Made by a program: the position numbers and the translations under genes | The notes under the pieces: model-generated | What the model saw: only the letters and a program-made list of their open reading frames with translations | The model's database searches: none | Told to the model about the DNA's origin: nothing | IMG/VR virus record: IMGVR_UViG_3300025070_002720 | Location: 1 to 42,655 of that record | Reading direction: 5' to 3' (one strand) | Length of the DNA stretch: 42,655 nucleotides | From: a virus | In this document: positions 3,608-38,512 of the stretch, piece by piece | Layout: every line of letters starts with the position of its first letter | Numbering within the stretch: the stretch's first letter is position 1

Positions 3608-4519
3608 CTATTGTCTCAAAGTTTTTTCAATTCTATAATCTGTATGTGTAAAGAAATCTGGTATAAATCTTGAATGCGTAGCTCTAATAGGGTTAATATC
3701 TAAACCGCCTCGTCTAGTATATAAACATGCTACCATTAAGTCGTCTGGTTGATAAGCATCCGTTAAATGTTTAAACACCATCTCGCATATCTCTTCATGA
3801 AAATGGCTAACAGTTCTATGAGATACTATATACTTAGCTATTGACTCAGGAGAAGGAATATTTTTACCATTCATTCTAATAAAAACATCTCCCCAATCTG
3901 GCTGATTAGTAACTCTACAGTTAGATCTTAGTAAGTTTGATTTTAACTTAATTTCTTTAGATTCTTTAACTACAGTTTCAGTTTCCAATTGAGAAGCATC
4001 AGATGAGAAAGCAGTAAAATCTATTAAGTCTAAATCTGCTATATCTCCTAGATCTTGATACCCTTCAAATGATAATGCTTTACCGTCATCTATATCACTA
4101 TAGAAACTTACAGTCGTACTTGTTTCTAATAATTTATCTAAGTCTTCTTTAACTTTAGCTTCTATCACAGCCATACAATCTGCTGCACAGTCTCCTAATC
4201 TAGTCATATTGAAAGAATTTAAATATAACTTAATAGATTTAGATTCTACGTGAAATTCTGAATTGGAAGGACAGACTATTTTTAACATACCGGCTACAGG
4301 TTGACCTTTAGTTGTAATAGCTGATACTTCATAACAATTCCAAGTATCTACTCCTACAAAGCTTTTATCAGTTAATCCGTATCCTTCTCTGTTTAAATAC
4401 CTTGGTACCTTAACTAGTAATTCAGGAGCGTAAGTATCTTTATACCCGTCTCCTCCTACTTTACCTAAATGTTTAGACGCTATGTCTACTACTGCTTGAT
4501 AATTTTTTACTTCTGCCAT
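3608..4519 (-). CDS. queF: QueF, NADPH-dependent preQ0 reductase (bimodular type)
   Basis: Reduces the nitrile of 7-cyano-7-deazaguanine (preQ0) to the aminomethyl group of preQ1. At 303 residues it has the E. coli-type two-module length. The N-terminal module carries the signature ESKSIKLYLNSF (92-103). The C-terminal module carries SNCRVTNQPDWG with the thioimide-forming Cys201 and proton-donor Asp208, then FHE (240-242) and the TRRGGLDINP block near 268-277. All residues expected for catalysis are present, so the phage should make preQ1 and not stop at preQ0. It ends the visible run of 7-deazaguanine genes that begins with queC. QueF-like amidotransferases that make archaeosine are shorter and unimodular, so reduction is the better call. 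Confidence 0.95.
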   Translation of the reverse strand: MAEVKNYQAVVDIASKHLGKVGGDGYKDTYAPELLVKVPRYLNREGYGLTDKSFVGVDTWNCYEVSAITTKGQPVAGMLKIVCPSNSEFHVESKSIKLYLNSFNMTRLGDCAADCMAVIEAKVKEDLDKLLETSTTVSFYSDIDDGKALSFEGYQDLGDIADLDLIDFTAFSSDASQLETETVVKESKEIKLKSNLLRSNCRVTNQPDWGDVFIRMNGKNIPSPESIAKYIVSHRTVSHFHEEICEMVFKHLTDAYQPDDLMVACLYTRRGGLDINPIRATHSRFIPDFFTHTDYRIEKTLRQ

Positions 4520-4525
4520 TTGTTT

Positions 4526-5089
4526 TTATTTATTAATATAATCAATCCACTTTGTTCCTTTTGTATCCGAGTTCGGAAATACAAACGATTTAGTTACATC
4601 ACCTATAGTAATGATTTTTCGAAATCCTGAAGGGATAGTAGCACCAGTTGGTAATACTTCTAACTTCCCTTCAAATAGGACTTCTACTCTCACTTTAACT
4701 TCTTTTCCAAAAAAGTTTGCTGCGTCTCTTTCAAAAGACTCTAATTTACTCCATTGACCTCTATTCAATCCTTCATGCTGTAAAGCAGAGTTGATATAAG
4801 AAAAGGTTTTGAGTAATGTTTCTTTATCACAACTAAAGGCTGCTGCTGGAGCTAGATGACCTTTGTCGTATATATTATTTCTATAATCCTCATTATCTGA
4901 GGTTTTAATATCTTTGGGTACCCAGAAATCCATACCTTGTCGTGATGCTTTGCCGTTAGGACATTTTACAGTATATTCAACCCAAAGAGGTTGTTGGTAT
5001 TCTTCACTGTATTCTACAGTATAAAGACCATTATCTACTATTTGAGCGACAGATGATACTGAAAATAAAAGTGCTATTATATATTTCAT
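4526..5089 (-). CDS. Secreted DNA/RNA non-specific endonuclease (NUC1/Serratia type)
   Basis: A 187-residue beta-beta-alpha-metal nuclease. Residues 1-15 (MKYIIALLFSVSSVA) form a hydrophobic Sec-type signal peptide. The catalytic motif reads DKGHLAPAA (75-83, the family's DRGH with Lys; general base His78). The metal-ligand helix follows as NSALQHEGLNRGQW (100-113, with Asn109 as likely ligand). The predicted product is exported and would act in the periplasm or outside the cell. It lies 7 bases after queF and 3 bases before the P-loop kinase gene. An exported nuclease cannot easily degrade the cytoplasmic host chromosome, so its role in infection is open. Possibilities are attacking extracellular DNA, competing phage DNA or the lysate. 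Confidence 0.85.
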   Translation of the reverse strand: MKYIIALLFSVSSVAQIVDNGLYTVEYSEEYQQPLWVEYTVKCPNGKASRQGMDFWVPKDIKTSDNEDYRNNIYDKGHLAPAAAFSCDKETLLKTFSYINSALQHEGLNRGQWSKLESFERDAANFFGKEVKVRVEVLFEGKLEVLPTGATIPSGFRKIITIGDVTKSFVFPNSDTKGTKWIDYINK

Positions 5090-5092
5090 ATT

Positions 5093-5611
5093 TTAATTTA
5101 TAAATTTCATTATTTGTTCTACTCTTTGCATAGGAGAGCCAGTTATAGTTAAGTAAGGTTGACGTACTCCATCTAGTACTGCTTTAAACTCATCGTCTAT
5201 TTCTTTTCTCCACTCTTCACTTATACTTCTTACTCCATCATCCACAGATTCAAATTCAATAGGAAAATAAATATAATGAGTATATTCATTTTTTACTCTA
5301 TTCCAAGTATCTTCTATATAATTGTAAGTATGCGAAGTTACTCCTTTCATAAATTTAGTATAGACTACAACATCCATATAACATCTATCTAAAACTAAGT
5401 TATAGGGTTGAAGTAAAGCTTCTAAATGGAAACTACTAATAGCTAGCTGAGTAGCACAAGTACCTTCTTCATTGATAGGAAATCCGTAACTACCTACAGT
5501 TCTAGTAGATTCGTTTACGAATTCATATTTAGGTAATTTATTTTTAAGTAGTTCATAAACAGTAGTCTTACCTGTACTACTTGCTCCTACTAATGCGATA
5601 CGTTTAATCAT
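5093..5611 (-). CDS. P-loop NTPase, NadR-like / AAA_28 kinase domain
   Basis: A 172-residue small-molecule kinase-like P-loop protein. The Walker A loop GASSTGKT covers residues 9-16. An ESTR element follows near residue 34 and VLDRCYMDVV follows the second core strand, as in nucleotide and NadR-type ribosylnicotinamide kinases. Substrate could be a nucleoside, a nucleotide or nicotinamide riboside; the sequence does not decide. The gene has a clear leader (TTCTTATATTA and AAAAGGTTATTAA before the ATG). It follows the DNA-modification pair dpdA/dpdN and precedes the nuclease. A role in nucleotide metabolism is inferred from context. Confidence 0.75.
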   Translation of the reverse strand: MIKRIALVGASSTGKTTVYELLKNKLPKYEFVNESTRTVGSYGFPINEEGTCATQLAISSFHLEALLQPYNLVLDRCYMDVVVYTKFMKGVTSHTYNYIEDTWNRVKNEYTHYIYFPIEFESVDDGVRSISEEWRKEIDDEFKAVLDGVRQPYLTITGSPMQRVEQIMKFIN

Positions 5612-5627
5612 TTAATAACCTTTTATT

Positions 5628-5638
5628 TAATATAAGAA
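5628..5638 (-). promoter_or_regulatory. Putative phage promoter element (TTCTTATATTA)
   Basis: Minus-strand TTCTTATATTA preceded by a run of T, 17 bases upstream of the ATG at 5611. It is followed by AATAAAAGGTTATTAA, the recurrent leader. The exact 11-mer also occurs at 2115, 20527, 22365 and 34562. Regulatory function is inferred from this recurrence. Confidence 0.5.
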
Positions 5639-5646
5639 AAAAAATG

Positions 5647-6189
5647 TTATAAACCAAATACTTTCTTTAGAAATATAGTCCACATATATAATGATCTATC
5701 TTTAAATACCCCCCACATTTCTTCTTCTGTAATGTTAAAAGCATTGAATCTTTCTTCTGCTAGTATCTTACCTTCATCTACCCCTGCATCAACTTTATGA
5801 AGAACACATCCCATAACTGGGTATTTTCCTTCAAATGCTCTAATCTGTGGATCTTTTCCTTTAAGTTCTGGGTATTCAGTTATAAGACCTGGATGTCCGT
5901 TAAAGATAGAGAACTTTTCGCATACTTCTTTCGGCATAATACGTAACCAACCATGTAAGGTAATTATTGCTTCCGGAAAATATACTAGTATTTCTTCATA
6001 ATCCTCTAAAGTAGGTTTATTGTTTAAAGTGAAAAAACCATTTTTTACTATTCTAGGATCTATCTCTCTAAGTCTTTCAGGTCTCTCGTTAGTATAAATT
6101 CTATCAGGCCATTTACCAAGTGACTTAGCTAAATCAGCTATCTCACTACCAGTCTGACTAAAGAATGCTATCCAAGGTTTAGTTGCCAT
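5647..6189 (-). CDS. dpdN: Formyltransferase, probable DpdN (dPreQ1 formyltransferase)
   Basis: A 180-residue protein with the PurN / methionyl-tRNA formyltransferase catalytic fold. The Asn-His-Asp triad is visible as NGHPG (Asn97, His99) and VDAGVDEG (Asp138), with LKGKDP between as in the family's substrate loop. It would transfer a formyl group from 10-formyl-tetrahydrofolate. The gene overlaps dpdA by 11 bases, so the two are coupled. From published work on phage 7-deazaguanines, such dpdA-linked formyltransferases are named DpdN and proposed to convert dPreQ1 in DNA to the formylaminomethyl derivative; QueF upstream in the pathway supplies the amine. A glycinamide-ribonucleotide formyltransferase role is the alternative, but no other purine-synthesis gene is present. 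Confidence 0.8.
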   Translation of the reverse strand: MATKPWIAFFSQTGSEIADLAKSLGKWPDRIYTNERPERLREIDPRIVKNGFFTLNNKPTLEDYEEILVYFPEAIITLHGWLRIMPKEVCEKFSIFNGHPGLITEYPELKGKDPQIRAFEGKYPVMGCVLHKVDAGVDEGKILAEERFNAFNITEEEMWGVFKDRSLYMWTIFLKKVFGL

Positions 6190-6982
6190 TCGTAAACCAT
6201 TTAAATTTCTGTATATTGTTTTTAATCGTTCCTAATTGCTTCATATCAATATCTGAGTTTATTAGTTCGAATAGTTTTTGTCTTTCTTTAGACCAAAGTC
6301 CATCTGAACCATATGTTATACCTTTTATTCCGTGAACAACAGGGTTAGATGTATCTAGTGAATAAATCCAATCATAATCTGAATGCTTGTAGAAGCTAAA
6401 TTCTTGAGGTAGCCCACAACCTAGTAAATGATGAGGTTTATGTTTATTAATTATACCGTCTTTAAGTAAATCTCCCAGTAACTTAACACGTCCTAGCATC
6501 CAACTAACATACTTGTTAGCATGAGGTACAGAAGTGCTGTAATACGAATAATCAAATGATATAGCTATCATATCTACATCTGCTGATTTATTCATATAGT
6601 TATAGCAATCTACTATTTCATCATAAGTCTTACCTTGAACTACTCCTATCTTTCCACTTCCTTCGTATCCAAGACCTTTATTATTCCAATCTTCCATTTG
6701 ATCGCAAGTTTTAGTAGCGTCTTCTAAAGCATCAGGAACAATGTACCATGAAGGTCTAAAGTCTTTTACCCATTTATCAAACTTCGCAGCATCAAAAGCT
6801 TCTTCTAATTCGAAAATAGAGTTATCTAGTATAATCTCTCTACCTTTGTCTCTAGCTCTTTTAAATTGATTGAGGTATGCTTCATCTTCCTCAAATAAAT
6901 GAACTAAAGCATAATCATAATCAGTAAGTTTTTGAACTTCTTCAAATACCTCTTTGGGACTTTCGTGTGCTATTTTTATCAT
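6179..6982 (-). CDS. dpdA: DpdA, DNA guanine transglycosylase for 7-deazaguanines
   Basis: A 267-residue TGT-like TIM-barrel protein of the DpdA type, which swaps guanine in DNA for a preQ-type base after replication. Visible landmarks are LDNSIFEL (52-59), VPDALED (82-88, with Asp84 a candidate active-site acid), GVVQGKTYDEI (113-123), HHLLGCGLP (184-192) and YSLDTSNPVVHG (207-218, with Asp210 a candidate nucleophile). The tRNA-TGT zinc motif (CXCX2C) is absent, as expected for phage DpdA. The stop overlaps the dpdN start, and the ATG overlaps the stop of the small gene upstream. The subfamily (DpdA1, 2 or 3) cannot be assigned by eye. DpdA function is well supported by the complete pathway around it. 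Confidence 0.88.
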   Translation of the reverse strand: MIKIAHESPKEVFEEVQKLTDYDYALVHLFEEDEAYLNQFKRARDKGREIILDNSIFELEEAFDAAKFDKWVKDFRPSWYIVPDALEDATKTCDQMEDWNNKGLGYEGSGKIGVVQGKTYDEIVDCYNYMNKSADVDMIAISFDYSYYSTSVPHANKYVSWMLGRVKLLGDLLKDGIINKHKPHHLLGCGLPQEFSFYKHSDYDWIYSLDTSNPVVHGIKGITYGSDGLWSKERQKLFELINSDIDMKQLGTIKNNIQKFKWFTNGN

Positions 6983-7194
6983 ATATTACTATCTAAATTT
7001 GAATCGTCTAATTGACTTAAGTCTGGTTGTAAGCTAGTTAATTCTTCTGAAAGAGTAGCTATTGCTGCGTCTAATTGTTTTATTTGAGCAGCTTCTATTG
7101 CTTCTTCTACTGCTTGTTTAGCTACAGATAATGGTACTACCTGCAGTTTACTTTCAAAATCAAAGAAAGCGTTTTCGTCTAGATTGATTGCCAT
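6979..7194 (-). CDS. Small acidic helical protein
   Basis: A 71-residue acidic protein. Residues 24-56 (AKQAVEEAIEAAQIKQLDAA and following) are strongly helical, with an Ala/Glu/Leu pattern typical of a short coiled coil, and the tail is Asp/Ser-rich. Its stop overlaps the dpdA start (ATGA) and its start follows the MazG-like gene by one base. It could be a DpdA partner by position, but no function is recognised. Confidence 0.6.
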   Translation of the reverse strand: MAINLDENAFFDFESKLQVVPLSVAKQAVEEAIEAAQIKQLDAAIATLSEELTSLQPDLSQLDDSNLDSNI

Positions 7195-7195
7195 A

Positions 7196-7717
7196 TTAAA
7201 AGAATTTTTTTAAGTTAGGTCTAAAGTAATTAATACTTTTCATTACTTTTTTATCTCTTGTTCGATAAACAATGTACCGTCCCTCCTCGATTTTTTCAAA
7301 ATGACAGGCCTCACCTTGTTCCTCAGCTCTTTTGCTGACACTGCGTATGGCCTCTTCTTCAGTTTTACAAGCTTTAGACATATTGCTCGCTTGTACTTCT
7401 TGATATGCTGGCCATATCTTATCCTTAAGGCCGTGTAACATAACACCGTTCCCAAGGGAAACATAAGCAATGTCGCACAAAGCATCCAAAACTTCCACAA
7501 TGTCTCCGTTTTCGCAAGCCTCTCTATACTCTTCGAGCTCTTCAAGGATGAAATCGTAAACGAACTGCCACTCTTTTTTTTCTGGTATGTTTGGTTCATA
7601 ATTATTTGGTTTACTAAAAGTATCGTTAAATATCTCAACTTCATCTACAAAAGGTACTGAAGGAGAAGATGGTACTTTATAATTCTCTTCTACAAAAAGT
7701 GATAACTGTTTTCCCAT
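7196..7717 (-). CDS. MazG/HisE-like all-alpha NTP pyrophosphohydrolase domain protein
   Basis: A 173-residue protein with the all-alpha NTP-PPase signature. FILEELEEYREA (56-67) supplies the first acidic helix (Glu59, Glu60, Glu63) and VEVLDALCDIAYV (74-86) the second metal-binding helix (Glu75, Asp78, Asp82). The C-terminal half carries a KCx2EEEAI-like stretch common in phage members of this family. Such enzymes hydrolyse (d)NTPs or related nucleotides to monophosphates and pyrophosphate. The middle of the gene (7261-7560) is about 43% GC by hand count, clearly above its neighbours, with a different codon mix. A long alternate frame exists inside it but is not supported. Confidence 0.78.
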   Translation of the reverse strand: MGKQLSLFVEENYKVPSSPSVPFVDEVEIFNDTFSKPNNYEPNIPEKKEWQFVYDFILEELEEYREACENGDIVEVLDALCDIAYVSLGNGVMLHGLKDKIWPAYQEVQASNMSKACKTEEEAIRSVSKRAEEQGEACHFEKIEEGRYIVYRTRDKKVMKSINYFRPNLKKFF

Positions 7718-7718
7718 T

Positions 7719-7922
7719 TTAATATACTTTAATTATTCTAGATTCTGCAAGGCTTATAATCTTAAAACTAGTTTCACCTAACTCCTCTAGCATTTTATAC
7801 GTTTTAGCTTCTGCTTCTGTTCCAGTCATAGCATCTACTAAATATATTTCTTTTACTTTCTGTACTCTACCTCTATCGTTTTCTCTTTCGAACTGGGTAG
7901 TAACTTGCCAATAGTTTGTCAT
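7719..7922 (-). CDS. DUF4494-like small protein
   Basis: A 67-residue protein reading MTNYWQVTTQFER, a G-R-V-Q-K-V-K-E-I-Y-L-V-D-A segment, then EAEAKTYKML. This pattern (a short strand, then KGRVKxxxExYLVDAxxxxEAE) is what I recall for DUF4494, a small family found in Bacteroidota genomes and their phages. Function is unknown. It supports the host guess. Spacing to the MazG-like gene is one base, so it belongs to the same operon. Confidence 0.65.
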   Translation of the reverse strand: MTNYWQVTTQFERENDRGRVQKVKEIYLVDAMTGTEAEAKTYKMLEELGETSFKIISLAESRIIKVY

Positions 7923-7936
7923 AATTATATTATTTA

Positions 7937-8650
7937 TTAATGTTTACAAATACTTGCTAATTCTATATTCTTATAGAACTCTGCTTTTGCTGAATCTTCG
8001 TTTAAGAACGCTCCTGTTAGTTTAGCAGTTTGCATTGATGCTCCTCTATGCTTAACTCCTCTACAGCTAACACAGTTATGGGTAGCTGATATCATTACTG
8101 CAACTCCTAAATTACCTTCACATATCTTATCTACTGCATTATGTATAGCTACAGTTAATTGTTCTTGAATAGCTCCTCTTCTACCGAATTGTTCTACTAT
8201 CCTATTAAGTTTAGATAGTCCTACTACTTTTCCATCCTCTGAAGCTATATAAGCAATGCTTACATTACCACCGATTGTTTGGTGATGATGTGAACACATC
8301 GACTGAACTGGTATATTGCTTTCTTGTACTATACCGTCGTATCCGTCTGATGGAAATGCTGTTATACGGTCTAGAGGGTTATACCTTCCGGCCCATAAAT
8401 CATTAACATATGCTTTAGCTACTCTCATTGGGGTATCAGATGAATTAGGATCATCTTTATAATCACATCCTAACGCAGTTAAAAACTCTGCGTATGCTTT
8501 TGCTGCTCTTTCTATAATTACATGCTTCTCATGTTCTGTTAACCTTGCTTCAGGTCCTTCTAATTCTTGCTTTGCAGCTAATTGACTTGATATACCATTT
8601 GCATATCCTGCTTTTACTAATTCTGTTCCGTCTATAAACTTTTTAGGCAT
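7937..8650 (-). CDS. folE: FolE, GTP cyclohydrolase I
   Basis: Converts GTP to 7,8-dihydroneopterin triphosphate, the first step of 7-deazaguanine (and folate) synthesis. The 237-residue protein carries the zinc site MCSHHH (Cys119, His122) and THNCVSCRG (Cys193). It also has the family's GKVVGLSKLNRIVEQFGRR-type block (140-158) and QEQLT (162-166). All catalytic landmarks are present. The N-terminal 40 residues are family-typical variable sequence. It is expressed from a separate leader (8651-8714) that holds a promoter-like element. With QueD, QueE, QueC and QueF it completes preQ1 synthesis from GTP. It could also raise the tetrahydropterin pool that feeds the formyl donor for the DpdN step. 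Confidence 0.96.
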   Translation of the reverse strand: MPKKFIDGTELVKAGYANGISSQLAAKQELEGPEARLTEHEKHVIIERAAKAYAEFLTALGCDYKDDPNSSDTPMRVAKAYVNDLWAGRYNPLDRITAFPSDGYDGIVQESNIPVQSMCSHHHQTIGGNVSIAYIASEDGKVVGLSKLNRIVEQFGRRGAIQEQLTVAIHNAVDKICEGNLGVAVMISATHNCVSCRGVKHRGASMQTAKLTGAFLNEDSAKAEFYKNIELASICKH

Positions 8651-8672
8651 AATATTTAATTTGTTTTATTGA

Positions 8673-8707
8673 GGTTCTACGACTCATTTGTTAATACAAT
8701 ATACGAT
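8673..8707 (-). promoter_or_regulatory. Two-part leader element upstream of folE
   Basis: On the minus strand ATCGTATATTG (8697-8707) is followed by GTCGTAGAACC (8673-8683), then about 22 bases to the ATG. A near copy with both parts lies at 10993-11036 upstream of the gene at 10975; the second parts match at 10 of 11 positions. The first part resembles the TTC(T/G)TATATTA element. A promoter or leader-control site is inferred. Confidence 0.45.
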
Positions 8708-8714
8708 TTTTAAT

Positions 8715-9119
8715 TTAATTATCCAAATAATCTTGAATAGGTTTTGAATTTTCTTTTTCCCAAGGGTAGACTACCCAGCCGAAATCATCGTCTATTTCTT
8801 CTGCATAGTATTCTGGTTTTGCTTTTGATGATGTTTTATAGTGTAGAGTAGCAAACTTAGGATTAAACATTTCGTCTCTCCACTTTAAAATTGTATCTCC
8901 ACTATCTGCTATATCATCTATAATTAATAACCTAGGATAGTGGTTACTTCTATACTCCATATATGGAATCTCAAATCGATGAGAATACATAATAGCGAGT
9001 ATGGTACCTCCTCTGGGTATTCCTGTTACATAGTCTATCTCTCCTTTGCATTTTTCGTGTATAATATCTAAGAGTCTATTGATATCGTCCCACGTTAGAA
9101 AAACTTTTTTTACTGCCAT
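8715..9119 (-). CDS. Phosphoribosyltransferase (xanthine/guanine type)
   Basis: A 134-residue type I phosphoribosyltransferase. The PRPP-binding loop LLIIDDIADSGDTI spans 64-77, VTGIPRGG (31-38) is the pyrophosphate-binding element, and WVVYPWE near the C-terminus resembles the base-contacting tail of small Gpt-like enzymes. It would turn a free purine base plus PRPP into a nucleotide. In a phage whose DpdA releases free guanine from DNA, salvage of that guanine to GMP is a plausible job, but this is inference. The gene sits between folE and queE and overlaps the end of the small gene upstream by 10 bases. Confidence 0.85.
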   Translation of the reverse strand: MAVKKVFLTWDDINRLLDIIHEKCKGEIDYVTGIPRGGTILAIMYSHRFEIPYMEYRSNHYPRLLIIDDIADSGDTILKWRDEMFNPKFATLHYKTSSKAKPEYYAEEIDDDFGWVVYPWEKENSKPIQDYLDN

Positions 9120-9283
9120 GTATGGTTCATTACCCAGTTACCAGTAGAGTAATTTGCTATAGATTTACTACCTACCGATTGTAGCTTCTCTTTTAAGTGG
9201 TCCCATTGTTGAGGAGTAATATTGTAATGGTGAACTCCTTCTGTGAAGCCTCGTAACCATTCTATAAATTGTGATTCATTCAT
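9110..9283 (-). CDS. Small phage protein (WLRGFTEG...QWDHLKEKL type)
   Basis: A 57-residue protein translated by hand: it starts MNESQFIEWLRGFTEG, continues with a PQQWDHLKEKL helix and ends NWVMNHTWQ. This pattern (a Trp-rich short helix, then an xPxQWxxLKxKL helix) recurs in small phage proteins of unknown function. Its ATG overlaps the stop of the preceding gene (ATGAATGA arrangement), and its own stop lies inside the phosphoribosyltransferase gene, which supports it as a real coupled gene. Confidence 0.7.
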   Translation of the reverse strand: MNESQFIEWLRGFTEGVHHYNITPQQWDHLKEKLQSVGSKSIANYSTGNWVMNHTWQ

Positions 9284-9410
9284 TTTCTATATAACTTTTT
9301 AATTTATCTATTAATACTAATACTTCGTCTGGTTCCATTGTTATAGCACAGCAAGTATTTATGTTTTCTGCTACTTCCTCTAATACCTCTAAAGCTTCAT
9401 CTTTAGTCAT
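9276..9410 (-). CDS. Small acidic hypothetical protein
   Basis: A 44-residue acidic helical protein (MTKDEALEVLEEVAENINTC and on), translated by hand. Its ATG shares one base with the queE stop (TAATG), and its stop overlaps the next small gene. Gap-free packing between queE and the phosphoribosyltransferase supports translation. Family and function are unknown. The two cysteines in tandem (TCCAIT) are the only distinctive feature. Confidence 0.6.
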   Translation of the reverse strand: MTKDEALEVLEEVAENINTCCAITMEPDEVLVLIDKLKSYIENE

Positions 9411-10198
9411 TATACCTCTCTTTGATCTTCAAAAGCAATAATATGAGGTCTCCAAGTCATTCTATATCCGTTATCTCTAACCCAATCAAATAATACTGGG
9501 TATGATTTAAATAATGCTTCTCTAGAATCTCCTGCAGGCATAAACCATACTTTTTCAGATTTAACATCCAAAGTTTTTATACAGTCCATTATTTCAGCTA
9601 ATGCTTCTTGATCTTTACCGTCCCATACTGGTTTAATATGGAAATCAGAATGATACTCTATTGACTGCTTAATTGCCTCATAATTAAGTCTAAATTTATT
9701 ATGACGTTTTACCATTCTCTCATCTGTAATTGCACCTTGAGGAGTTTCTACTCCAACGACTGGAACAGAATTAGAAAACTTAGGGCTAATAGATAACAAA
9801 TTAATAGGGTAATCTGTGGGTAGGAAATGACTACCTTCAGTTTCGATAGTAATAAAGATATTATTTTCATGTGCAAAATGTGTTAATTCGTTTACTAAAG
9901 CTGGATGCATAGTAGGAGAACCTCCTGTCAACATCATCTCTTTTATATGAGGATTCTTTTCGTACATCGCAATTATATCTTTAAAATTGAAGTCTCCTTT
10001 TTCCGGGTGTATACTTGTATACCAACTATCACACCATCCTCCTTCTCCGAAGTAACATCTATGGGTACATCCTGTAGTTCTTATTACAACTGTTGGGTAA
10101 CCTGCTCTTGAACCTTCTGATTGTACTGCTGTATATATTTCTACGATAGGTAGGTTTTTATCGTAATCTTCTATTCTCTTTAATTGCTTGTGTGCCAT
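9410..10198 (-). CDS. queE: QueE, 7-carboxy-7-deazaguanine synthase (radical SAM), unusual CX3CX7C cluster
   Basis: Radical SAM enzyme converting 6-carboxy-tetrahydropterin to 7-carboxy-7-deazaguanine (CDG). Family landmarks in the 262 residues are the QSEGSRAG segment (26-33), RTTGCTHRC (40-48), TGGSPTMHP (91-99, the SAM-binding GGE-type motif with Ser for Glu) and IETEGS. The [4Fe-4S] cysteines are Cys44, Cys48 and Cys56, giving CX3CX7C where the classical radical SAM motif is CX3CX2C. The loop insert is YFGEGGW. QueE enzymes with enlarged cluster loops are known, so function is likely kept. It sits between queD and the small 9410 gene, sharing a TAATG junction with the latter. Confidence 0.93.
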   Translation of the reverse strand: MAHKQLKRIEDYDKNLPIVEIYTAVQSEGSRAGYPTVVIRTTGCTHRCYFGEGGWCDSWYTSIHPEKGDFNFKDIIAMYEKNPHIKEMMLTGGSPTMHPALVNELTHFAHENNIFITIETEGSHFLPTDYPINLLSISPKFSNSVPVVGVETPQGAITDERMVKRHNKFRLNYEAIKQSIEYHSDFHIKPVWDGKDQEALAEIMDCIKTLDVKSEKVWFMPAGDSREALFKSYPVLFDWVRDNGYRMTWRPHIIAFEDQREV

Positions 10199-10218
10199 AT
10201 ATTTTTATTATATTAATA

Positions 10219-10707
10219 CTACTCCTCGTAGATTGATGAATTTTTATCTGCTTCCCAACATTCAACTTTGGTAACTTTTACTCTACCTCCTCCAGTTAGT
10301 TCCATTCTTTTGTTAAAATGATCAAATACTAATTTAGCACAAGATTCTGCTCCCATTGAATCCATAACCCTTAAAGCACATAGTCCTAATTCCTCCATGT
10401 ATTGGAAAGTTTCTAATTGAGGATCATCTTTTTCTATTAGTAGAGTGTGATCCCACATATGGTTCATCCAATCTTTTAAACCATTACCGGGTGTTGGTTC
10501 AGCATCAGTTGATTTAAACCCTCCGTAATCCATAATCCAATTCATCTCATCTAATTGATTTTCTTCTAGTGGTTCTTTAGATTCAAACCATACTTTAAAT
10601 TTTAAAGCATATCCGTGAAGTAATTCACAATGTGAGTGTGCAGCTTTATGCTGTCTTAGTGCTACTGAGTAATTATCAAATAGCTTTGTTGATTTGTATG
10701 TTCCCAT
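10219..10707 (-). CDS. queD: QueD-like 6-carboxy-5,6,7,8-tetrahydropterin synthase
   Basis: Converts dihydroneopterin triphosphate to 6-carboxytetrahydropterin for QueE. The 162-residue protein shows the fold's marks: AAH (His24), CELLHGY (catalytic Cys27, His31), MDYGGFK (59-65), WDHTLLIEKDDP and a C-terminal VECWEA with the substrate-binding Glu. It is longer than the ~120-residue bacterial form. The zinc-binding HGH reads HGY (Tyr33), and the loop between AAH and the Cys is very short. His26 might take the third-ligand place. Position right next to queE, 20 bases apart, supports the assignment. Confidence 0.9.
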   Translation of the reverse strand: MGTYKSTKLFDNYSVALRQHKAAHSHCELLHGYALKFKVWFESKEPLEENQLDEMNWIMDYGGFKSTDAEPTPGNGLKDWMNHMWDHTLLIEKDDPQLETFQYMEELGLCALRVMDSMGAESCAKLVFDHFNKRMELTGGGRVKVTKVECWEADKNSSIYEE

Positions 10708-10717
10708 AATTTTTATT

Positions 10718-10975
10718 TTAAACTAATTCTTCTCCTATTCCTACTATTTCTGATAGTATAAGCAAAATAGCAGCTATATCTATACTCCACCATAATGCAG
10801 CATACCCTAATATACGGATACCTGATTTGATGAAGCTAATTTGTTGATGTAATTTTGGATCCGGAATTTTATGATCATTGATCTTAATTCCTGTAAATTC
10901 TTTACCTGTAGAATACGAACCTTCTCTGTCGTAAAGTTCGTCTAGGATTTCTTTTTCTTCTTTTCTTTTTATCAT
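10718..10975 (-). CDS. Small membrane protein
   Basis: An 85-residue protein with a charged N-terminal half (KRKEEKEILDELYDREGS) and one strong hydrophobic segment at about 53-78 (IRILGYAALWWSIDIAAILL). A single-pass inner-membrane protein with the N-terminus inside is likely. I recognise no family. It is the first gene behind the two-part leader element at 10993-11036 and precedes queD by 10 bases. Confidence 0.65.
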   Translation of the reverse strand: MIKRKEEKEILDELYDREGSYSTGKEFTGIKINDHKIPDPKLHQQISFIKSGIRILGYAALWWSIDIAAILLILSEIVGIGEELV

Positions 10976-10992
10976 ATTCGTGTTTTTATAGT

Positions 10993-11036
10993 GGTGCTAC
11001 GACACTGTTGTGCTATATATTTATACAATATACGAA
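10993..11036 (-). promoter_or_regulatory. Two-part leader element, second copy
   Basis: Minus-strand TTCGTATATTG (11026-11036) and GTCGTAGCACC (10993-11003), upstream of the ATG at 10975. Both parts repeat at 8673-8707 ahead of folE, but the spacer is 22 bases here and 13 there. Shared by two leaders within the 7-deazaguanine region, it may drive that operon's subunits. Confidence 0.45.
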
Positions 11037-11040
11037 ACTT

Positions 11041-11715
11041 TTATTTAAGAACCAACATTTTTTCATGTCCTATTATTAAAGTTGGATCGACATATATATC
11101 GTAACCTTTTTTTGTTATCATTCTACAGAATGCTACATCTTCCATAGTAAATTCTTTAAATGAAGTATCTCCTACCTTAAATTCTTCCCAAAGAGGTTGA
11201 AACCATGGATACTCTAGTGATTCAAATACACCTTTTTTAATTAATACCCAACCAAACCCAGTATACTCTACTTTAAATGGTTTAGTTCTTTTATTTATTA
11301 ACTTATCATCTAAAAATTCAAAAGAACCATTCTTTGCATAGTGCTCTTTGTCCCATTTTTCCACTGTAGCGTAGTTGGTATTGTTCTGAGTTTTGTATAT
11401 TCCGGAAGCAATATCTTTATTCATGTTAAGTAACTTAATAAAGTCATTAACTTCAAATACCATATCTGAATCTATCCACATTATGTAATCGTAATCTATT
11501 TGACCATCGAACGGCATTTGGTTTTTACCTCTAACTGATGCTCCTCCTAAACATTGATTTCTAACGTAGTATAGTAGTGGACTATAACTATTTGACAGAA
11601 TTGGAGTAATTCCATACTTGGGTAAGTATTGTAGAAGATTACTCCAACTAGTCAAAAAATTATTTGAAAAAGTTCGTCCCGGTAGACAAAATACTATTTT
11701 TAATTGTTTTTGCAA
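11041..11715 (-). CDS. GT-A type glycosyltransferase (GT2-like)
   Basis: A 224-residue nucleotide-sugar-dependent transferase. It opens with a beta-strand (LKIVFCLPGRTFS) and has the metal-binding DXD in YIMWIDSDMVF (Asp82, Asp84). It continues with an ASGIYKT-type strand, a GFGWVLIKKGVFESL acceptor-site segment and an EDVAFCRMITKKGY motif, as in GT2 enzymes. The acceptor is unknown: DNA, lipopolysaccharide or a protein. Its place inside the 7-deazaguanine module, between queC and queD, makes a sugar-decorated base conceivable, but that is speculation. It starts 18 bases after the small gene at 11734. Confidence 0.8.
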   Translation of the reverse strand: MQKQLKIVFCLPGRTFSNNFLTSWSNLLQYLPKYGITPILSNSYSPLLYYVRNQCLGGASVRGKNQMPFDGQIDYDYIMWIDSDMVFEVNDFIKLLNMNKDIASGIYKTQNNTNYATVEKWDKEHYAKNGSFEFLDDKLINKRTKPFKVEYTGFGWVLIKKGVFESLEYPWFQPLWEEFKVGDTSFKEFTMEDVAFCRMITKKGYDIYVDPTLIIGHEKMLVLK

Positions 11716-11733
11716 ATTTATATTTTTAGTATT

Positions 11734-11877
11734 TTAAATATTACGGTGTCTTCTCATACCGTCCCATTTCACTTTTTTTGTTTTACTCAACATCCTTAAT
11801 TTATCTATACGATTATTAAGTTTATTCCTTTCAGAATTTAATTGAGTATTTCCGTTTGTTTGATCACTAATTGCCAT
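11734..11877 (-). CDS. Small basic hypothetical protein
   Basis: A 47-residue basic protein translated by hand (MAISDQTNGNTQLNSERNKL, then a Lys/Arg-rich tail ending RRHRNI). It starts 11 bases inside the 3' end of queC and fills the gap before the glycosyltransferase gene. The central helix looks like a short nucleic-acid-binding coil. No family is recognised. Compact overlap favours a real gene. Confidence 0.5.
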   Translation of the reverse strand: MAISDQTNGNTQLNSERNKLNNRIDKLRMLSKTKKVKWDGMRRHRNI

Positions 11878-12688
11878 AACCTGCGAGTACTTTTTCAACA
11901 TGAGCTTTTGCAACTTGGTAACTAACTACACCTGTTTCATCAGCATATCCAACAGGATCAGGTCTACCTAATTTAATAAAAGCCTCAATACGTTCTACTG
12001 ATGAAGCTGATTTATAATCACTATACCATTCCCAAGCATTTGCTTCAGGTCTGCTGTAAACTTTCATTGGTTTATAAGAGGTATTTGTTCTTCTATACAC
12101 CTCGTCAAAGTCTAAATCTAGTACCTCACATAAATTTAATCCATCTTGTAAGATACCAAACTTATCAGTATCTAAATAAGGAGTAAAGTAACCTACTCTA
12201 TCAGCATCCCAATTCCCCATTCTAAAAGCTGCATCATCTGCATCTCTAAATTCCTGTCTGCAATCAGGGTAAACTGCATGATCACCAGCATGAATACCTA
12301 AAGCAATATCACAAACACCTTCTGTTTTATTTGCTACAGATAATGCTACTGCTTGTGTAATTGAAGCAAACATTTTATTTCTATTAGGAACAACAGTTTC
12401 TTTCATATTCTCTTGCTCGTAATGTCCTTCTGGTACATCATCTCCGCCTTCTACTAAAGCTGAATCTAGTAAATCTACTAAACCATCTAATTTAATTTGA
12501 CGATAATTTACTTTGTGACCTTTACTTGCAAGGTAATCAATTAATGATTGAGCTCTTTCTAGCTCTACTTTATGTTTTTGACCGTAGTCAAATGAGATAC
12601 CTGTTACTGTATCATACTTCTCGATAGCTCTTAACAATAGGGTGCTGCTATCCATTCCACCACTTAAACTTACTACACAATGTGCCAT
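11867..12688 (-). CDS. queC: QueC-like preQ0 synthase lacking the zinc-binding cysteines
   Basis: ATP-dependent conversion of CDG to preQ0. The 273-residue protein has an intact PP-loop SGGMDSS (9-15), SFDYGQKHKVELERA (32-46), VVPNRNKMF (99-107) and the IALGIHAGDHAVYPDCR block (128-144). Canonical QueC has a C-terminal zinc site of four cysteines (SCY ... CGxCxSC). Here the matching region reads TNTSYKPM (201-208) and YKSASSVERIEAF (225-237): every zinc cysteine is replaced, by Ser, Asp or similar. The flanking ERIEAF and GRPDPVGY blocks are conserved, so this is substitution, not truncation. It is the most upstream gene of the pathway in transcription order. QueC identity is sure, but the zinc-free state is unusual. 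Confidence 0.92.
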   Translation of the reverse strand: MAHCVVSLSGGMDSSTLLLRAIEKYDTVTGISFDYGQKHKVELERAQSLIDYLASKGHKVNYRQIKLDGLVDLLDSALVEGGDDVPEGHYEQENMKETVVPNRNKMFASITQAVALSVANKTEGVCDIALGIHAGDHAVYPDCRQEFRDADDAAFRMGNWDADRVGYFTPYLDTDKFGILQDGLNLCEVLDLDFDEVYRRTNTSYKPMKVYSRPEANAWEWYSDYKSASSVERIEAFIKLGRPDPVGYADETGVVSYQVAKAHVEKVLAGYGN

Positions 12689-13365: not shown

Positions 13366-15078
13366 TTATCCGTCACAACTTAAACAATCCGTAGAAGTCC
13401 TGCTACCTATATCTCCGTTGATTACTGAATCTGTTCTTAGGTAGTACAGAGTTTTAACTCCTAATCTCCATGCTGCTTGATGTACTTCGTTAATAAACTT
13501 AGGACTATCTGTTGGATCAAATGCTAGATTAAGAGATTGTGTTTGATCTATATATTTTTGTCTGGCAGAAGCTTGTTCAACCAATTGAAGCTGGTTAATC
13601 TCTGCAAAGGTTAAAAATATAGGCTTATCTTCTGCAGGCATTATATCTTCAGGTAAGTTAGCAATTGAACCTCTATCTTTCATAATTTGATCCCATACTT
13701 CTTCTGTGTTATGTCCTGATTCTTCTAAATAATTTTCTAAAGCAGAGTTCTTTCTAATAAAAGTTCCTTTAGCAGAATTAAAAGTATAAACATTAGCAGG
13801 TACAGGTTCAATACCCGCAGATACTCCTCCTGCTATAGTGCTGTTAGAGACTGTAGGAGCAACTGCTATCAAATGTGTATTTCTCATCCCAGTTCCCTTA
13901 CACCATAGTGGCTCTCCATATTCATTTGCTAATTTTCTAGAAGCATTTTCTGCTTTTTGTTTAATATCTGAAAATATCTGGTGAGTTAGCGATGTTGCAG
14001 CAACTGAGGTAAATGGAATTCTTTCGTTTTGAAGTAATGTATGCCAACCTAATACTCCTAATCCAATTGCTCTTCCTTTTTTAGCTGATCTGTGAGCTCT
14101 AATCAATGAATCTCTTCCGGATGTTTTAGCTAAAAATTCTTCTAATACTCCGTCTAGAAAGTAAACTGCGGTCTCAATTAAATCTGAGTTTTTCCATTCA
14201 TGGTATTTCGTAAGGTTAACTGAAGATAAGCAACATATAAAGCTATGTTCTTCATCAGTATGTAAAGTAATTTCAGAACAAATATTAGTCATAGAAACAT
14301 CTAGATTATTTTTCTTATAAGCTAATGGATTTGCATTATTTACTGTATCTCCAAACATAATATATGGTTCTCCGGTTTCCATTCTAGATTTAAGAATCTT
14401 TATCCATAATTCCATTGCTTCTGCATCTCTATGTTCTAAACGTTGCATAAAAGCATCATCTATATTTACACATTGATGCAAATTGAGGCACTGTCTGTTA
14501 GGGTCTCCCTTAGGTCTACGTATTTCTAGGTACTCCTCTATATCTGGATGATTGATATCTAAGTTTACTGATGCTGCTCCTCTTCTGACTGCTCCTTGAT
14601 TAGTCGCTATGATAGTAGAATCGTAAATTTTAGCCCAAGGTACAATACCTTCTGATTGACCAACTCCATTACCTATTTTTTCACCTCTTCCTCTGACTTT
14701 ACCTAAACCGATTCCAACTCCACCGCCTAGAGAAGTTAATCTCATAAGTTCTGCGTTAGTTAAACCGATACCTCTAATAGAGTCAGGAGTATCAATACCA
14801 AAACAGGAGATTGGCAGTCCTTTATCAGTTCCAGTATTAGATAAAACTGGTGATGCTAGATTTAACCAACCTTTCCACATATACCTAAAGAACTTATTTT
14901 CTAAATCCGGTCTATCTAACCTTCTTGCTACTGTAGAAGCAACTCTTCTAAAAGCTTTTTTTGGTGTTTCATCTGCTAAAAGGTATCCTTTAGATATAGT
15001 AGCAATTGATATTTCATTCATCCATTCTGGGTAATCCTTACCTGATTCCCAGGAGGAAGTATCTACAATTATGCTCAT
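13366..15078 (-). CDS. nrdA: Ribonucleotide reductase large subunit, class I (NrdA)
   Basis: Reduces ribonucleoside diphosphates to the deoxy form. Active-site residues are visible: Cys92 in ISCFG, NICSE (Asn265, Cys267, Glu269), and the partner redox Cys282 in ICCLSSVNL. There is also the TLYYLRT pair for radical transfer and a C-terminal CLSC (near 566-569) for re-reduction. At 570 residues it is short; the N-terminal ATP-cone that mediates dATP inhibition in E. coli NrdA is missing, so overall activity is probably not shut down by dATP. It is flanked by nrdB upstream and thioredoxin downstream, a self-contained dNTP supply unit. Confidence 0.96.
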   Translation of the reverse strand: MSIIVDTSSWESGKDYPEWMNEISIATISKGYLLADETPKKAFRRVASTVARRLDRPDLENKFFRYMWKGWLNLASPVLSNTGTDKGLPISCFGIDTPDSIRGIGLTNAELMRLTSLGGGVGIGLGKVRGRGEKIGNGVGQSEGIVPWAKIYDSTIIATNQGAVRRGAASVNLDINHPDIEEYLEIRRPKGDPNRQCLNLHQCVNIDDAFMQRLEHRDAEAMELWIKILKSRMETGEPYIMFGDTVNNANPLAYKKNNLDVSMTNICSEITLHTDEEHSFICCLSSVNLTKYHEWKNSDLIETAVYFLDGVLEEFLAKTSGRDSLIRAHRSAKKGRAIGLGVLGWHTLLQNERIPFTSVAATSLTHQIFSDIKQKAENASRKLANEYGEPLWCKGTGMRNTHLIAVAPTVSNSTIAGGVSAGIEPVPANVYTFNSAKGTFIRKNSALENYLEESGHNTEEVWDQIMKDRGSIANLPEDIMPAEDKPIFLTFAEINQLQLVEQASARQKYIDQTQSLNLAFDPTDSPKFINEVHQAAWRLGVKTLYYLRTDSVINGDIGSRTSTDCLSCDG

Positions 15079-35037: not shown

Positions 35038-35745
35038 CTATATTTGTATATTAAAGTTGATAACAGCTCTGTGAGTTTTACCGTAAAAAGGTTCAACTGA
35101 ATGTATAATATCATAAGGCCATATTATAAGCATACCTTTTTTAGGTCTAATGTAATGTTTCATACCTCTTACATGAAAGGCAAAAACTCCACTATAAGGG
35201 TGATCCTTAATTGGGTCACCGTCAGATAAGTAGTACCCTCCGGAAAACATTATTGGCTTTGCTTCATTATGATGCCACCTACAGTGATTATGAGCATTGT
35301 GTCCTCTACCTGAGGTTGGTTCATAGTACTGTAACCAGCTTTCTGTAATTTCTGGTTTATTGTTATTTTCAATTTCCAATAAGTCTAGCATTTTACAGAA
35401 ACTGCCTTTTATCCGTCTCTTTATAACTTCTACATTATAATCTTTAGTTTCTAAAAAATCATTTGGAGGAGTATAAAACCTACTACCAATTGGTTGAAGT
35501 TTATGTTCTTCCACCCATTCTTCTTGTCTATCGTAATTAACGTTGTAGCTATTCTGTCTTTGGGTATCAAATTGACCTGGTAGTTCTTGTCCCATTTTTT
35601 TTTGTTGTGGGTTGAGAATATTTAGTCCAAGAGTATACACTTCATCTGCTATAGTATCATCAAATATTCGTTTATATATTGGAATAGGGGCAAGATGATA
35701 TAAATGTTCTTGAGTAGTTTTTATTAGTGGTTTTTTGAAATTCAT
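35038..35745 (-). CDS. 2OG-Fe(II) oxygenase-like protein
   Basis: A 235-residue protein with the C-terminal pattern of 2-oxoglutarate/Fe(II) dioxygenases common in phages. A His-rich metal region GHNAHNHCRWHHN (148-160) leads to MFSGGYYLSDGD (166-177). A second half gives KKGMLIIWPYDIIHSVEPF (202-220, with distal His215) and THRAVINFN (Arg226 for 2-oxoglutarate). It would hydroxylate a protein, sugar or nucleobase. It ends the glycosyltransferase/radical-SAM cassette, three bases after the radical-SAM gene, so the two are probably coupled. Confidence 0.8.
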   Translation of the reverse strand: MNFKKPLIKTTQEHLYHLAPIPIYKRIFDDTIADEVYTLGLNILNPQQKKMGQELPGQFDTQRQNSYNVNYDRQEEWVEEHKLQPIGSRFYTPPNDFLETKDYNVEVIKRRIKGSFCKMLDLLEIENNNKPEITESWLQYYEPTSGRGHNAHNHCRWHHNEAKPIMFSGGYYLSDGDPIKDHPYSGVFAFHVRGMKHYIRPKKGMLIIWPYDIIHSVEPFYGKTHRAVINFNIQI

Positions 35746-35748
35746 ATA

Positions 35749-36774
35749 TTATTTTAAATATCCATTATGAAAAGGTACATAGAAATCTACCTTATAATTT
35801 TTAGTTTTAGCATATGCTTCGGCTTCTAACTGTGCCTCCCAAAATATTCGCCAGTTAGTACTGTTGCAAAGTTTACTGTTATCTATCTTTAAATCTGATA
35901 GATATTTCATAGTTAAAGTGAATTGGGTACTGTTTGACCCAACTTCTATTCCTAAATCTATCATTTCTTTTAATTCGTGTACATTATATAAATTAATATT
36001 ATTAGTAATATAGGATTTGTCGTATATACCTTCTCTTTTTTTTACTTTTTTAAAATAAGAAGTTAAATTCTTTTTTATTTTATTAAAATAATCTAACTTT
36101 CTTATAACCTTATACGTATCAGATGTTCCTGCATCTATTGAAAATCCTAAATGTACGTTTTTAACTGTATCCAAAAATCTTTCCTGTATCCTTTCAGTAA
36201 ATATAGTTCCGTTGCAAAAAGTCCAGAATAAGATATTGTCTCTATATTTTATGAAATCAAGTTTTTCGAATACATCAAAAATCCTGTCTTTATAAAACGG
36301 TTCTGCTATTCCTAAGACGGAAAGATTTCTAACCTCTGGCATTGCTATTTTTACCTCATTTAAAATATCATCTAGTATATCAGGTCCTACATTCTCCATA
36401 AACTGTTTACTGCTTCTAGGGCACATAATACAGGCAGTGTCCGGTGTAGGTTTTATACCTCCTATATTACAAAAAGTAGAGGGTATGTTCAACTCTATAT
36501 CAACTGGATACTTAGTTAGGTGTACTTCTTTTTTGGGTAGTTTATTAAGACTGTAAAATCTGAATGGACATTTATTATTGTTGCAGTATTTTCTATCCAA
36601 AGTACCTTTAAGGGTTGAATTTTTAACTCCTCTCAGTTCAGGATTTTTCCAAGCCTTCTCTATACCGTCTTTTAATATATTACCGTACATAGAAGATTGA
36701 AAGCAGCAGGAATGGTAACTCCCGTCTTCGTTAATTTTTAATCTAGTAAAAGGTAAATCACAAAATGCTTTCAT
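35749..36774 (-). CDS. Radical SAM / SPASM-like protein with atypical cysteine spacing
   Basis: A 341-residue cysteine-rich protein. The N-terminus opens FCDLPFTRLKINEDGSYHSCC (Cys5, Cys23, Cys24), followed by YCNNNKCPF (Cys64, Cys69). This resembles an auxiliary iron-sulfur (SPASM-type) domain placed in front. A FCNIGG...ACIMCPR segment (Cys102, Cys115, Cys118) then forms CX12CX2C where CX3CX2C is usual. Downstream strands (LSVLGIAEPFY, HLGFSIDAGTSDTY) look like a radical SAM barrel. It would generate a 5'-deoxyadenosyl radical to modify a peptide, sugar or base. It sits between a glycosyltransferase and the oxygenase. Confidence 0.75.
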   Translation of the reverse strand: MKAFCDLPFTRLKINEDGSYHSCCFQSSMYGNILKDGIEKAWKNPELRGVKNSTLKGTLDRKYCNNNKCPFRFYSLNKLPKKEVHLTKYPVDIELNIPSTFCNIGGIKPTPDTACIMCPRSSKQFMENVGPDILDDILNEVKIAMPEVRNLSVLGIAEPFYKDRIFDVFEKLDFIKYRDNILFWTFCNGTIFTERIQERFLDTVKNVHLGFSIDAGTSDTYKVIRKLDYFNKIKKNLTSYFKKVKKREGIYDKSYITNNINLYNVHELKEMIDLGIEVGSNSTQFTLTMKYLSDLKIDNSKLCNSTNWRIFWEAQLEAEAYAKTKNYKVDFYVPFHNGYLK

Positions 36775-37544
36775 TATATATGTTTAAAATATAAATTCAT
36801 ATCAAGCTCTTCATTAATAAACTTATTTAGTTTTCTTTGTATTTTACTAATCTTAAAGTAGTGATCAGTTCTATCGTCACTTACTCCTTGAACATATACT
36901 GGTTGAAATTTATTAATATATTCTTTTAAACTACAGTTGGAATATATTAGCATAGCATGTTCTTCTATACATCCTTCGATTTTATTTTTTATAGTTATAT
37001 CTATTAAATCTCTTCCTAAGTTTCTATTTGATGTATACAAACAACCAAAATTAGGTGTTGCTAATCCTTCTTTAAACTCCCAATTATATTTTTTAAATTC
37101 TCTTTCAAGGACTTTAAAGTATTCTAAGTTATAATTTAAAATTAATCTTCCTTCAAAAGTTTCCTTAAATGATTCTACTGTGTCTTTATGTTGAGCATAT
37201 AAAGGGCAGAGTGTCTCATTTTTATTTAATAGATTATAAAAGTTCTTATCTAATGGTCTTAAAGCGTAACAATCCCAATCCAACATAATGACTTTTTCAA
37301 ACTTCTTCAAAGCTAAGTCTAATGCTACTAATTTTTTACCGTATTGGGTATTGTATGTTTCAAAATAGGGGTGTGAGTCCTTAACTAAGAATGTGTTAAA
37401 TCCTCTTTCTTTTAGAAAGTTTTCGTTCTCCTTACCCCAAACGTATACCAAGTGATTACTCATTACCGGGAATCTTGGAATTTCAGCTTTAGTTTCATTC
37501 CTTTCCCCCCAGTATGTTCTAATTATAGGTATTGTTGTATTCAT
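36774..37544 (-). CDS. GT-A glycosyltransferase
   Basis: A 256-residue transferase. The DXD motif lies in VIMLDWDCYAL (Asp89, Asp91), after a HLVYVWGKENENFL strand and the GKKLVALDLALKKF donor-binding helix. C-terminal GCIEEHAMLIY and VYVQGVSDDRTDHYF are typical of short GT-A enzymes on sugar-nucleotide donors. The acceptor is unknown. Its stop shares a base with the radical-SAM start, and it overlaps the upstream glycosyltransferase by 26 bases, so the genes are co-translated. Confidence 0.8.
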   Translation of the reverse strand: MNTTIPIIRTYWGERNETKAEIPRFPVMSNHLVYVWGKENENFLKERGFNTFLVKDSHPYFETYNTQYGKKLVALDLALKKFEKVIMLDWDCYALRPLDKNFYNLLNKNETLCPLYAQHKDTVESFKETFEGRLILNYNLEYFKVLEREFKKYNWEFKEGLATPNFGCLYTSNRNLGRDLIDITIKNKIEGCIEEHAMLIYSNCSLKEYINKFQPVYVQGVSDDRTDHYFKISKIQRKLNKFINEELDMNLYFKHI

Positions 37545-38511: not shown

Positions 38512-38512
38512 A

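Follow-up and report, generated by a model that had tools for sequence, protein, structure and literature searches.

Does the phage represented by IMG/VR record IMGVR_UViG_3300025070_002720 replace the guanine of its DNA, and if so, by which base? The window, that is, the whole record of 42,655 bases (33% G+C), carries between positions 3608 and 12688 of its minus strand genes for FolE, QueD, QueE, a QueC-like protein, QueF, DpdA and a PurN-fold formyltransferase, DpdN (Table 1). Each was found where an earlier note on this DNA had placed it, by Pfam and PHROG matches or, in the case of DpdA, by a homologue in Flavobacterium phage immuto and by predicted fold. Judging from the genes themselves, their catalytic residues and predicted folds, their strict co-occurrence and their order, we put at roughly 75% the probability that the cassette swaps guanine in the phage DNA for 2'-deoxy-7-(formylamino)methyl-7-deazaguanine (fdPreQ1) by a self-contained pathway; the chemistry, the product and the extent of replacement are all predicted.

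In the proposed pathway, FolE, QueD, QueE and a QueC that lacks its zinc motif would convert GTP to preQ0, which QueF would reduce to preQ1. DpdA would then exchange guanine in the phage DNA for preQ1, and DpdN would transfer the formyl group of 10-formyl-tetrahydrofolate (10-formyl-THF) to the aminomethyl arm, giving fdPreQ1. Formylation would cancel the positive charge of dPreQ1 and leave a neutral amide at position 7, in the major groove, where it is expected to block many restriction enzymes. Cui et al. (2023) are said to have detected fdPreQ1 by mass spectrometry of phage DNA and to have named DpdN as the formyltransferase by prediction; their DpdN is described as PurN-like and linked to DpdA and QueF, with the same predicted product as here, and nothing in the window speaks against their assignment. 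The earlier statement that DpdN rests on prediction is thus correct as regards the enzyme, whereas the base itself has reportedly been observed. Phage DpdA and the bases dPreQ0, dPreQ1, dG+ and dADG are established, and dPreQ1 was found by mass spectrometry in Dp-1 and HVTV-1, phages with QueF-type enzymes (PMC6884629).

The evidence that bears most directly on DpdN is its genomic company. Scanning viral contigs with DpdN returned at least 502 relatives among at least 599 pattern matches; the best 80 were kept, and the survey set comprised 59 distinct DpdN loci. Every locus with 3 kb or more of downstream sequence (49 of 49) had QueF, and every one with 2 kb or more upstream (52 of 52) had DpdA. 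Such linkage is what a formyltransferase that needs both the preQ1 amine and a transglycosylase would show, whereas a PurN of the purine pathway would not predict it. In the 38 loci with wide flanks, an AAA_28 P-loop protein was always present, followed in frequency by FolE (37), QueE and MazG (34 each), a phosphoribosyltransferase (PRTase; 32) and QueD (31). The commonest order was QueC>QueD>QueE>PRT>FolE>MazG>DpdA>DpdN>AAA_28>QueF, and its DpdA>DpdN>AAA_28>QueF part was found in most loci. Synteny kept in tens of contigs excludes chance as the origin of the gene block. Two loci considered as cases of DpdN without QueF (L208, dpdN at 14480-15025, and L214, dpdN at 14251-14799) were dropped, since dpdN lies ∼3.5–3.7 kb downstream of dpdA in these loci, and the contigs stop shortly past it. 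No DpdN was found in the plasmid search, and genome contigs yielded two DpdN relatives only.

The sequence of DpdN was compared with that of Escherichia coli PurN. Residues N97, H99 and D138 of DpdN align (hhalign) with N106, H108 and D144 of PurN, the described catalytic set (PMC4786211, PMC3261824), and are invariant in 53 DpdN homologues, which bears out the catalytic residues first proposed from the sequence. The protein is a minimal formyltransferase domain of 180 aa. Its AlphaFold2 (AF2) model has a mean predicted local distance difference test score (pLDDT) of 92.6, and Foldseek matched it best to glycinamide ribonucleotide (GAR) transformylases (TMq, the score relative to the query, 0.65–0.82) and in second place to sugar N-formyltransferases. 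The structural comparison with PurN that had been called for thus places the predicted fold in the GAR transformylase family, with which DpdN shares the Asn-His-Asp triad.

Might the protein then be a PurN of auxiliary metabolic function, raising purine synthesis, with its adjacency to dpdA incidental? The closest solved folds are GAR transformylases, the nearest PHROG family is the phosphoribosylglycinamide formyltransferase of cyanophages, and the immuto record labels the homologue PurN. However, DpdN scores only 40.6 against the NCBIfam PurN equivalog, the cut-off of which is 150.1; the phage FolE, QueC and QueF also fall under their own NCBIfam cut-offs, but come much nearer to them than DpdN does to that of PurN. 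Furthermore, putative phosphate- and ribose-contact residues are swapped for other conserved ones. In the hhalign register, PurN N13 corresponds to E16 in 53 of 53 DpdN homologues, and E173 to S166 in 50 of 53, the latter register having been placed by hand in the C-terminal helix; N13 and E173 are the residues that we take to be GAR contacts. DpdN homologues also share signatures of their own (FFSQTGxEI, LHGWLRI, NGHPGLIT, ELKGKDPQ and GVDEG). By family score and swapped contacts, therefore, DpdN does not look like PurN. Taken together with the strict linkage to DpdA and QueF, and with no partner genes of purine synthesis among the annotated open reading frames (ORFs) of the window, this makes a purine-pathway role very improbable. 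The assignment of DpdN is thus backed by co-occurrence, by a PurN-like predicted fold and by the exchange of putative GAR contacts; it is still a prediction.

DpdA had to be approached through its homologues and its fold, as it gave no match in Pfam or NCBIfam and only chance matches when its sequence profile was searched against PDB. The protein annotated as DpdA in immuto shares 73% identity with it, and the homologue of Campylobacter phage CP220 40% over 97–98%. The AF2 model, built from an alignment of 53 homologues from which two loci were left out whole, has a pLDDT of 94.9, and all of its top 50 Foldseek matches in PDB were tRNA-guanine transglycosylases (TGT; E-values of 1.8e-8 and weaker, TMq about 0.6). 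Asp residues 53, 84 and 210 are invariant among the homologues aligned and, assigned by motif context rather than by superposition, look like D102, D156 and D280 of TGT. With 267 aa and three scattered cysteines, DpdA appears to lack the zinc subdomain of TGT. This type of DpdA, related to that of Campylobacter phages, is presumably the DpdA3 subfamily.

The supply of the amine depends on the enzymes upstream. In QueF, C201, D208, H241 and E242 align with C190, D197, H229 and E230 of the E. coli enzyme, both modules are kept, and the best PDB sequence match is a QueF (2e-42); the claim that QueF is intact, made for Cys201 and Asp208, can thus be extended to the whole catalytic set. FolE retains the CxHH and C zinc/catalytic residues of its E. 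coli counterpart. Cluster cysteines C44, C48 and C56 of QueE align with E. coli C31, C35 and C38, the second and third being separated by a 7-residue spacer. In QueD, C27, D86, H87 and E152 correspond to the catalytic Cys27, Asp70, His71 and Glu110, all of which are kept. Two of its three zinc histidines are lost relative to the E. coli enzyme (H16 is replaced by Q19 and H33 by Y33; H31 is kept), and a matching variant of the zinc site occurs in immuto, phage phi13:1 and locus L005. Phage 9g QueD, which has been shown to be functional (PMC6884629), has the canonical HGH and therefore offers no proof of function for the variant type.

QueC departs further from the canonical form. A study of 2026, which defined the QueC signature, presented the zinc motif as a hallmark of the enzyme and found Tyr189, within the motif, to be essential (PMC13329287). 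The window QueC and its 21 clade relatives keep SGGxDS (the PP-loop), YxQxHxxE, VPxRN, YPDC, K165 and Y189. The zinc motif itself, C(x)8CxxCxxC, is gone in all of them alike (C188S, C197D, C200S and C203S); carriers include loci L006, L009, L012 and L015, and the motif is lost in a Vibrio phage QueC (L021) too. All four cysteines are present in L166 and L224, both of which have DpdN; the loss is therefore a clade trait and no requirement of DpdN. As the clade retains QueF wherever this can be judged, we think that the zinc-less QueC still forms preQ0. The pathway, described as complete in the earlier note, does have all of its genes, but its completeness hangs on the activity of this variant. 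It is conceivable, though unlikely, that the DNA carries a mixture, either mainly dPreQ1, if DpdN is weak or regulated, or an earlier 7-deazaguanine, if QueC is impaired. The four substitutions in QueC would fit such an outcome, and mixtures of 7-deazaguanines occur in phages nt-1 and HVTV-1 (PMC6884629). On the other side, continued formation of preQ0 is suggested by the invariance of all other QueC signature residues among the 22 clade members and by the retention of QueF in every locus where it could be looked for.

Certain points weigh against a self-contained pathway to fdPreQ1. The loss of zinc ligands in QueC and QueD could mean that preQ0 synthesis is impaired or reliant on the host. 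In a Microcoleus metagenome-assembled genome (L090, 4752-8537), the neighbours of a DpdN homologue are a DegT/DnrJ aminotransferase, a PRTase and a radical SAM-like ORF, and neither DpdA nor QueF occurs within 8 kb; proteins of the DpdN fold family are therefore not confined to DNA modification. Finally, the net charge of DpdN, −3, does not favour DNA binding, although as an arbiter between formylation of DNA and of the free base it is uninformative, as DpdA is yet more acidic.

The L090 locus also bears on the order of the last two steps. DpdN may formylate free preQ1, and DpdA may insert formyl-preQ1 directly; the final base would be unchanged. The absence of an added nucleic-acid-binding domain from DpdN speaks for this order, as do the small amines used by relatives of its fold and the aminotransferase next to the DpdA-less homologue. 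Domain size alone is indecisive, however, and the published assignment is reportedly that of a dPreQ1 formyltransferase. For the latter reason we lean, with modest confidence, towards formylation after insertion by DpdA, and consider the reverse order a serious though less probable option.

Table 1. Features of the 7-deazaguanine cassette (window coordinates unless a locus is named).
Feature	Position	Strand	Evidence
QueF, bimodular NADPH-dependent preQ0 nitrile reductase (preQ1-making)	3608..4519	-	Pfam QueF_N 8e-28 + QueF 8e-17
NUC1-type nuclease, between AAA_28 gene and queF	4526..5089		
AAA_28 P-loop kinase/ATPase	5093..5611	-	Pfam AAA_28 1.6e-18
AAA_28 kinase with this DpdA type, locus L018	20494..21036		
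DpdN, PurN-fold N10-formyl-THF-dependent amine formyltransferase, predicted dPreQ1 (or preQ1) substrate	5647..6189	-	Formyl_trans_N 1.6e-9
DpdA, DNA guanine transglycosylase, immuto/CP220 type	6179..6982	-	Homologue identity, predicted fold
MazG/PRA-PH-like nucleoside triphosphate pyrophosphohydrolase, linked accessory	7196..7717	-	PRA-PH 7.5e-10; PHROG nucleotide pyrophosphohydrolase 5e-28
FolE, GTP cyclohydrolase I	7937..8650	-	Pfam 1.4e-42
Gpt-type (xanthine-guanine) PRTase	8715..9119	-	PDB, NCBIfam matches
QueE, radical SAM 7-carboxy-7-deazaguanine synthase	9410..10198	-	PHROG QueE 9e-54; PDB QueE 2e-9
QueD, 6-carboxytetrahydropterin synthase, variant zinc site	10219..10707	-	PHROG QueD 6e-32
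QueC-like 7-cyano-7-deazaguanine synthase without zinc motif	11867..12688	-	Pfam QueC 1.3e-36

The dpdA and dpdN genes overlap by 11 bases (6179-6189), as had been noticed before. The description of the cassette as one operon did not stand up as well. The genes are co-directional, but other ORFs are interposed, namely those for the nuclease, the AAA_28 kinase, MazG, a DUF4494 protein and the Gpt-type PRTase, as well as a glycosyltransferase-like ORF that precedes queC. Since, in addition, there are gaps of 290 and 151 bp, and a scan for sigma-70 promoters was at chance level (50 found against 47.5 expected), a single operon is an assumption.

Two of the interposed genes may have a part in the base exchange. 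Linkage of AAA_28 to the DpdN loci is as tight as that of QueF, and in CP220 an AAA_28 P-loop gene directly follows dpdA; on both grounds the AAA_28 protein is a candidate partner of this type of DpdA, and the kinase may be a missing component of the immuto/CP220-type enzyme. In PDB the PRTase is matched best by the purine PRTase GpT-1 (7e-10) and by E. coli XGPRT, and its NCBIfam match is a xanthine PRTase (2e-10); a natural guess is that it recycles the guanine freed by DpdA.

How much of this arrangement is particular to the window? The closest isolate is immuto (vB_FspM_immuto_2-6A, NC_055915), which has the same order, QueD-QueE-PRTase-FolE-DUF4494-MazG-DpdA-DpdN-AAA_28-QueF. Besides DpdA, its QueE is 84%, its zinc-less QueC about 72%, its QueF 63% and its DpdN 51% identical to the window protein. 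In immuto, queC (18.6–19.5 kb of the record) is set apart from queD (30.0 kb), and dpdN and dpdA do not overlap but are separated by a small ORF. The window has in addition the NUC1-type nuclease and the glycosyltransferase-like ORF. In the relatives too, the stretch between dpdA and queF repeatedly contains nucleases, which are of the NUC1, staphylococcal-nuclease or GIY-YIG/NUMOD3 homing type. CP220 resembles the window in the succession of dpdA and AAA_28, but has no DpdN in its whole record, and QueF was undetected in the 40 kb around its dpdA. The base reported for Campylobacter phages is dADG (PMC6884629).

PHROG matches of the window ORFs include the sheath, tube and tail fibres of a contractile-tail phage, as well as T4-like UvsX and SSB, a DnaB helicase and a ribonucleotide reductase; nearly all large ORFs are on the minus strand. 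Leaders of the window genes are A-rich and without Shine-Dalgarno sites, as is usual in Bacteroidota phages. The window is from a myovirus, probably of a Bacteroidota host, and is probably a fragment of its genome. Rfam and tRNA scans of it gave no match. At 35038-39385, a 2OG-Fe(II) oxygenase, a radical SAM/SPASM protein, a DUF6734 protein and a GT25 glycosyltransferase adjoin tail-fibre genes; this cluster perhaps serves in virion or peptide modification.

Lineages with QueF and this type of DpdA but without DpdN were also found (L136; L138, the same as L228; L141, the same as L140 and L277; and L346/L337). In L346 (6591-8912) and L337, DpdA, AAA_28 and QueF stand back to back, with neither DpdN nor a protein of GNAT acetyltransferase type, and the predicted base is plain dPreQ1. 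The other three, sister lineages, each have a GNAT domain in the slot between dpdA and queF: L136 as part of a fusion with its AAA_28 protein (6123-7076; Pfam E-value 0.0023), L138 as a free-standing domain (11995-12444; 0.003), together with what may be an amidoligase (0.071), and L141 within a HAD-GNAT protein (6918-8441; 2.8e-11). When 66 ORFs of the slot were scanned, representatives of the DpdN-positive loci and those of the DpdN-less lineages, three matched GNAT models, as many as there are such proteins. All three fall in the four DpdN-less lineages, an outcome with a chance of about 1e-4 if GNAT and DpdN were unrelated, calculated post hoc on loci that are not independent. Two of the three matches are under curated cut-offs; PDB searches with these two weak domains gave no useful match, and the GNATs of L136 and L138 had relatives only in their own or identical contigs. 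DpdN is absent from the available sequence of the L136, L138 and L141 contigs, which are fragments. GNAT standing in for DpdN hints at other acyl-deazaguanines and is a lead, not a result. More speculatively, the slot might, alongside the zinc-free QueC, be a swappable amine-capping site, filled by a formyltransferase, by nothing or by a GNAT, the last of which would give undescribed N-acyl (e.g., N-acetyl) aminomethyl-7-deazaguanines; we regard this as rather unlikely.

The gene set is already known from immuto and dozens of other virus contigs, and the window, put forward earlier as a good test case for DpdN, is not unique as such. What is new is the broad test of linkage, the zinc-less QueC, the kinase as a partner as tight as QueF, and the GNAT lead. 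By comparative genomics, the survey puts the assignment of DpdN to the test: DpdN is always accompanied by QueF and DpdA where the sequence suffices. The number of related stretches indicates, moreover, that uncultured viruses commonly carry the cassette. The zinc-less QueC, which has lost the ligands and retained Tyr189, bears on the mechanism of QueC, and immuto is a cultured phage in which the chemistry is directly checkable.

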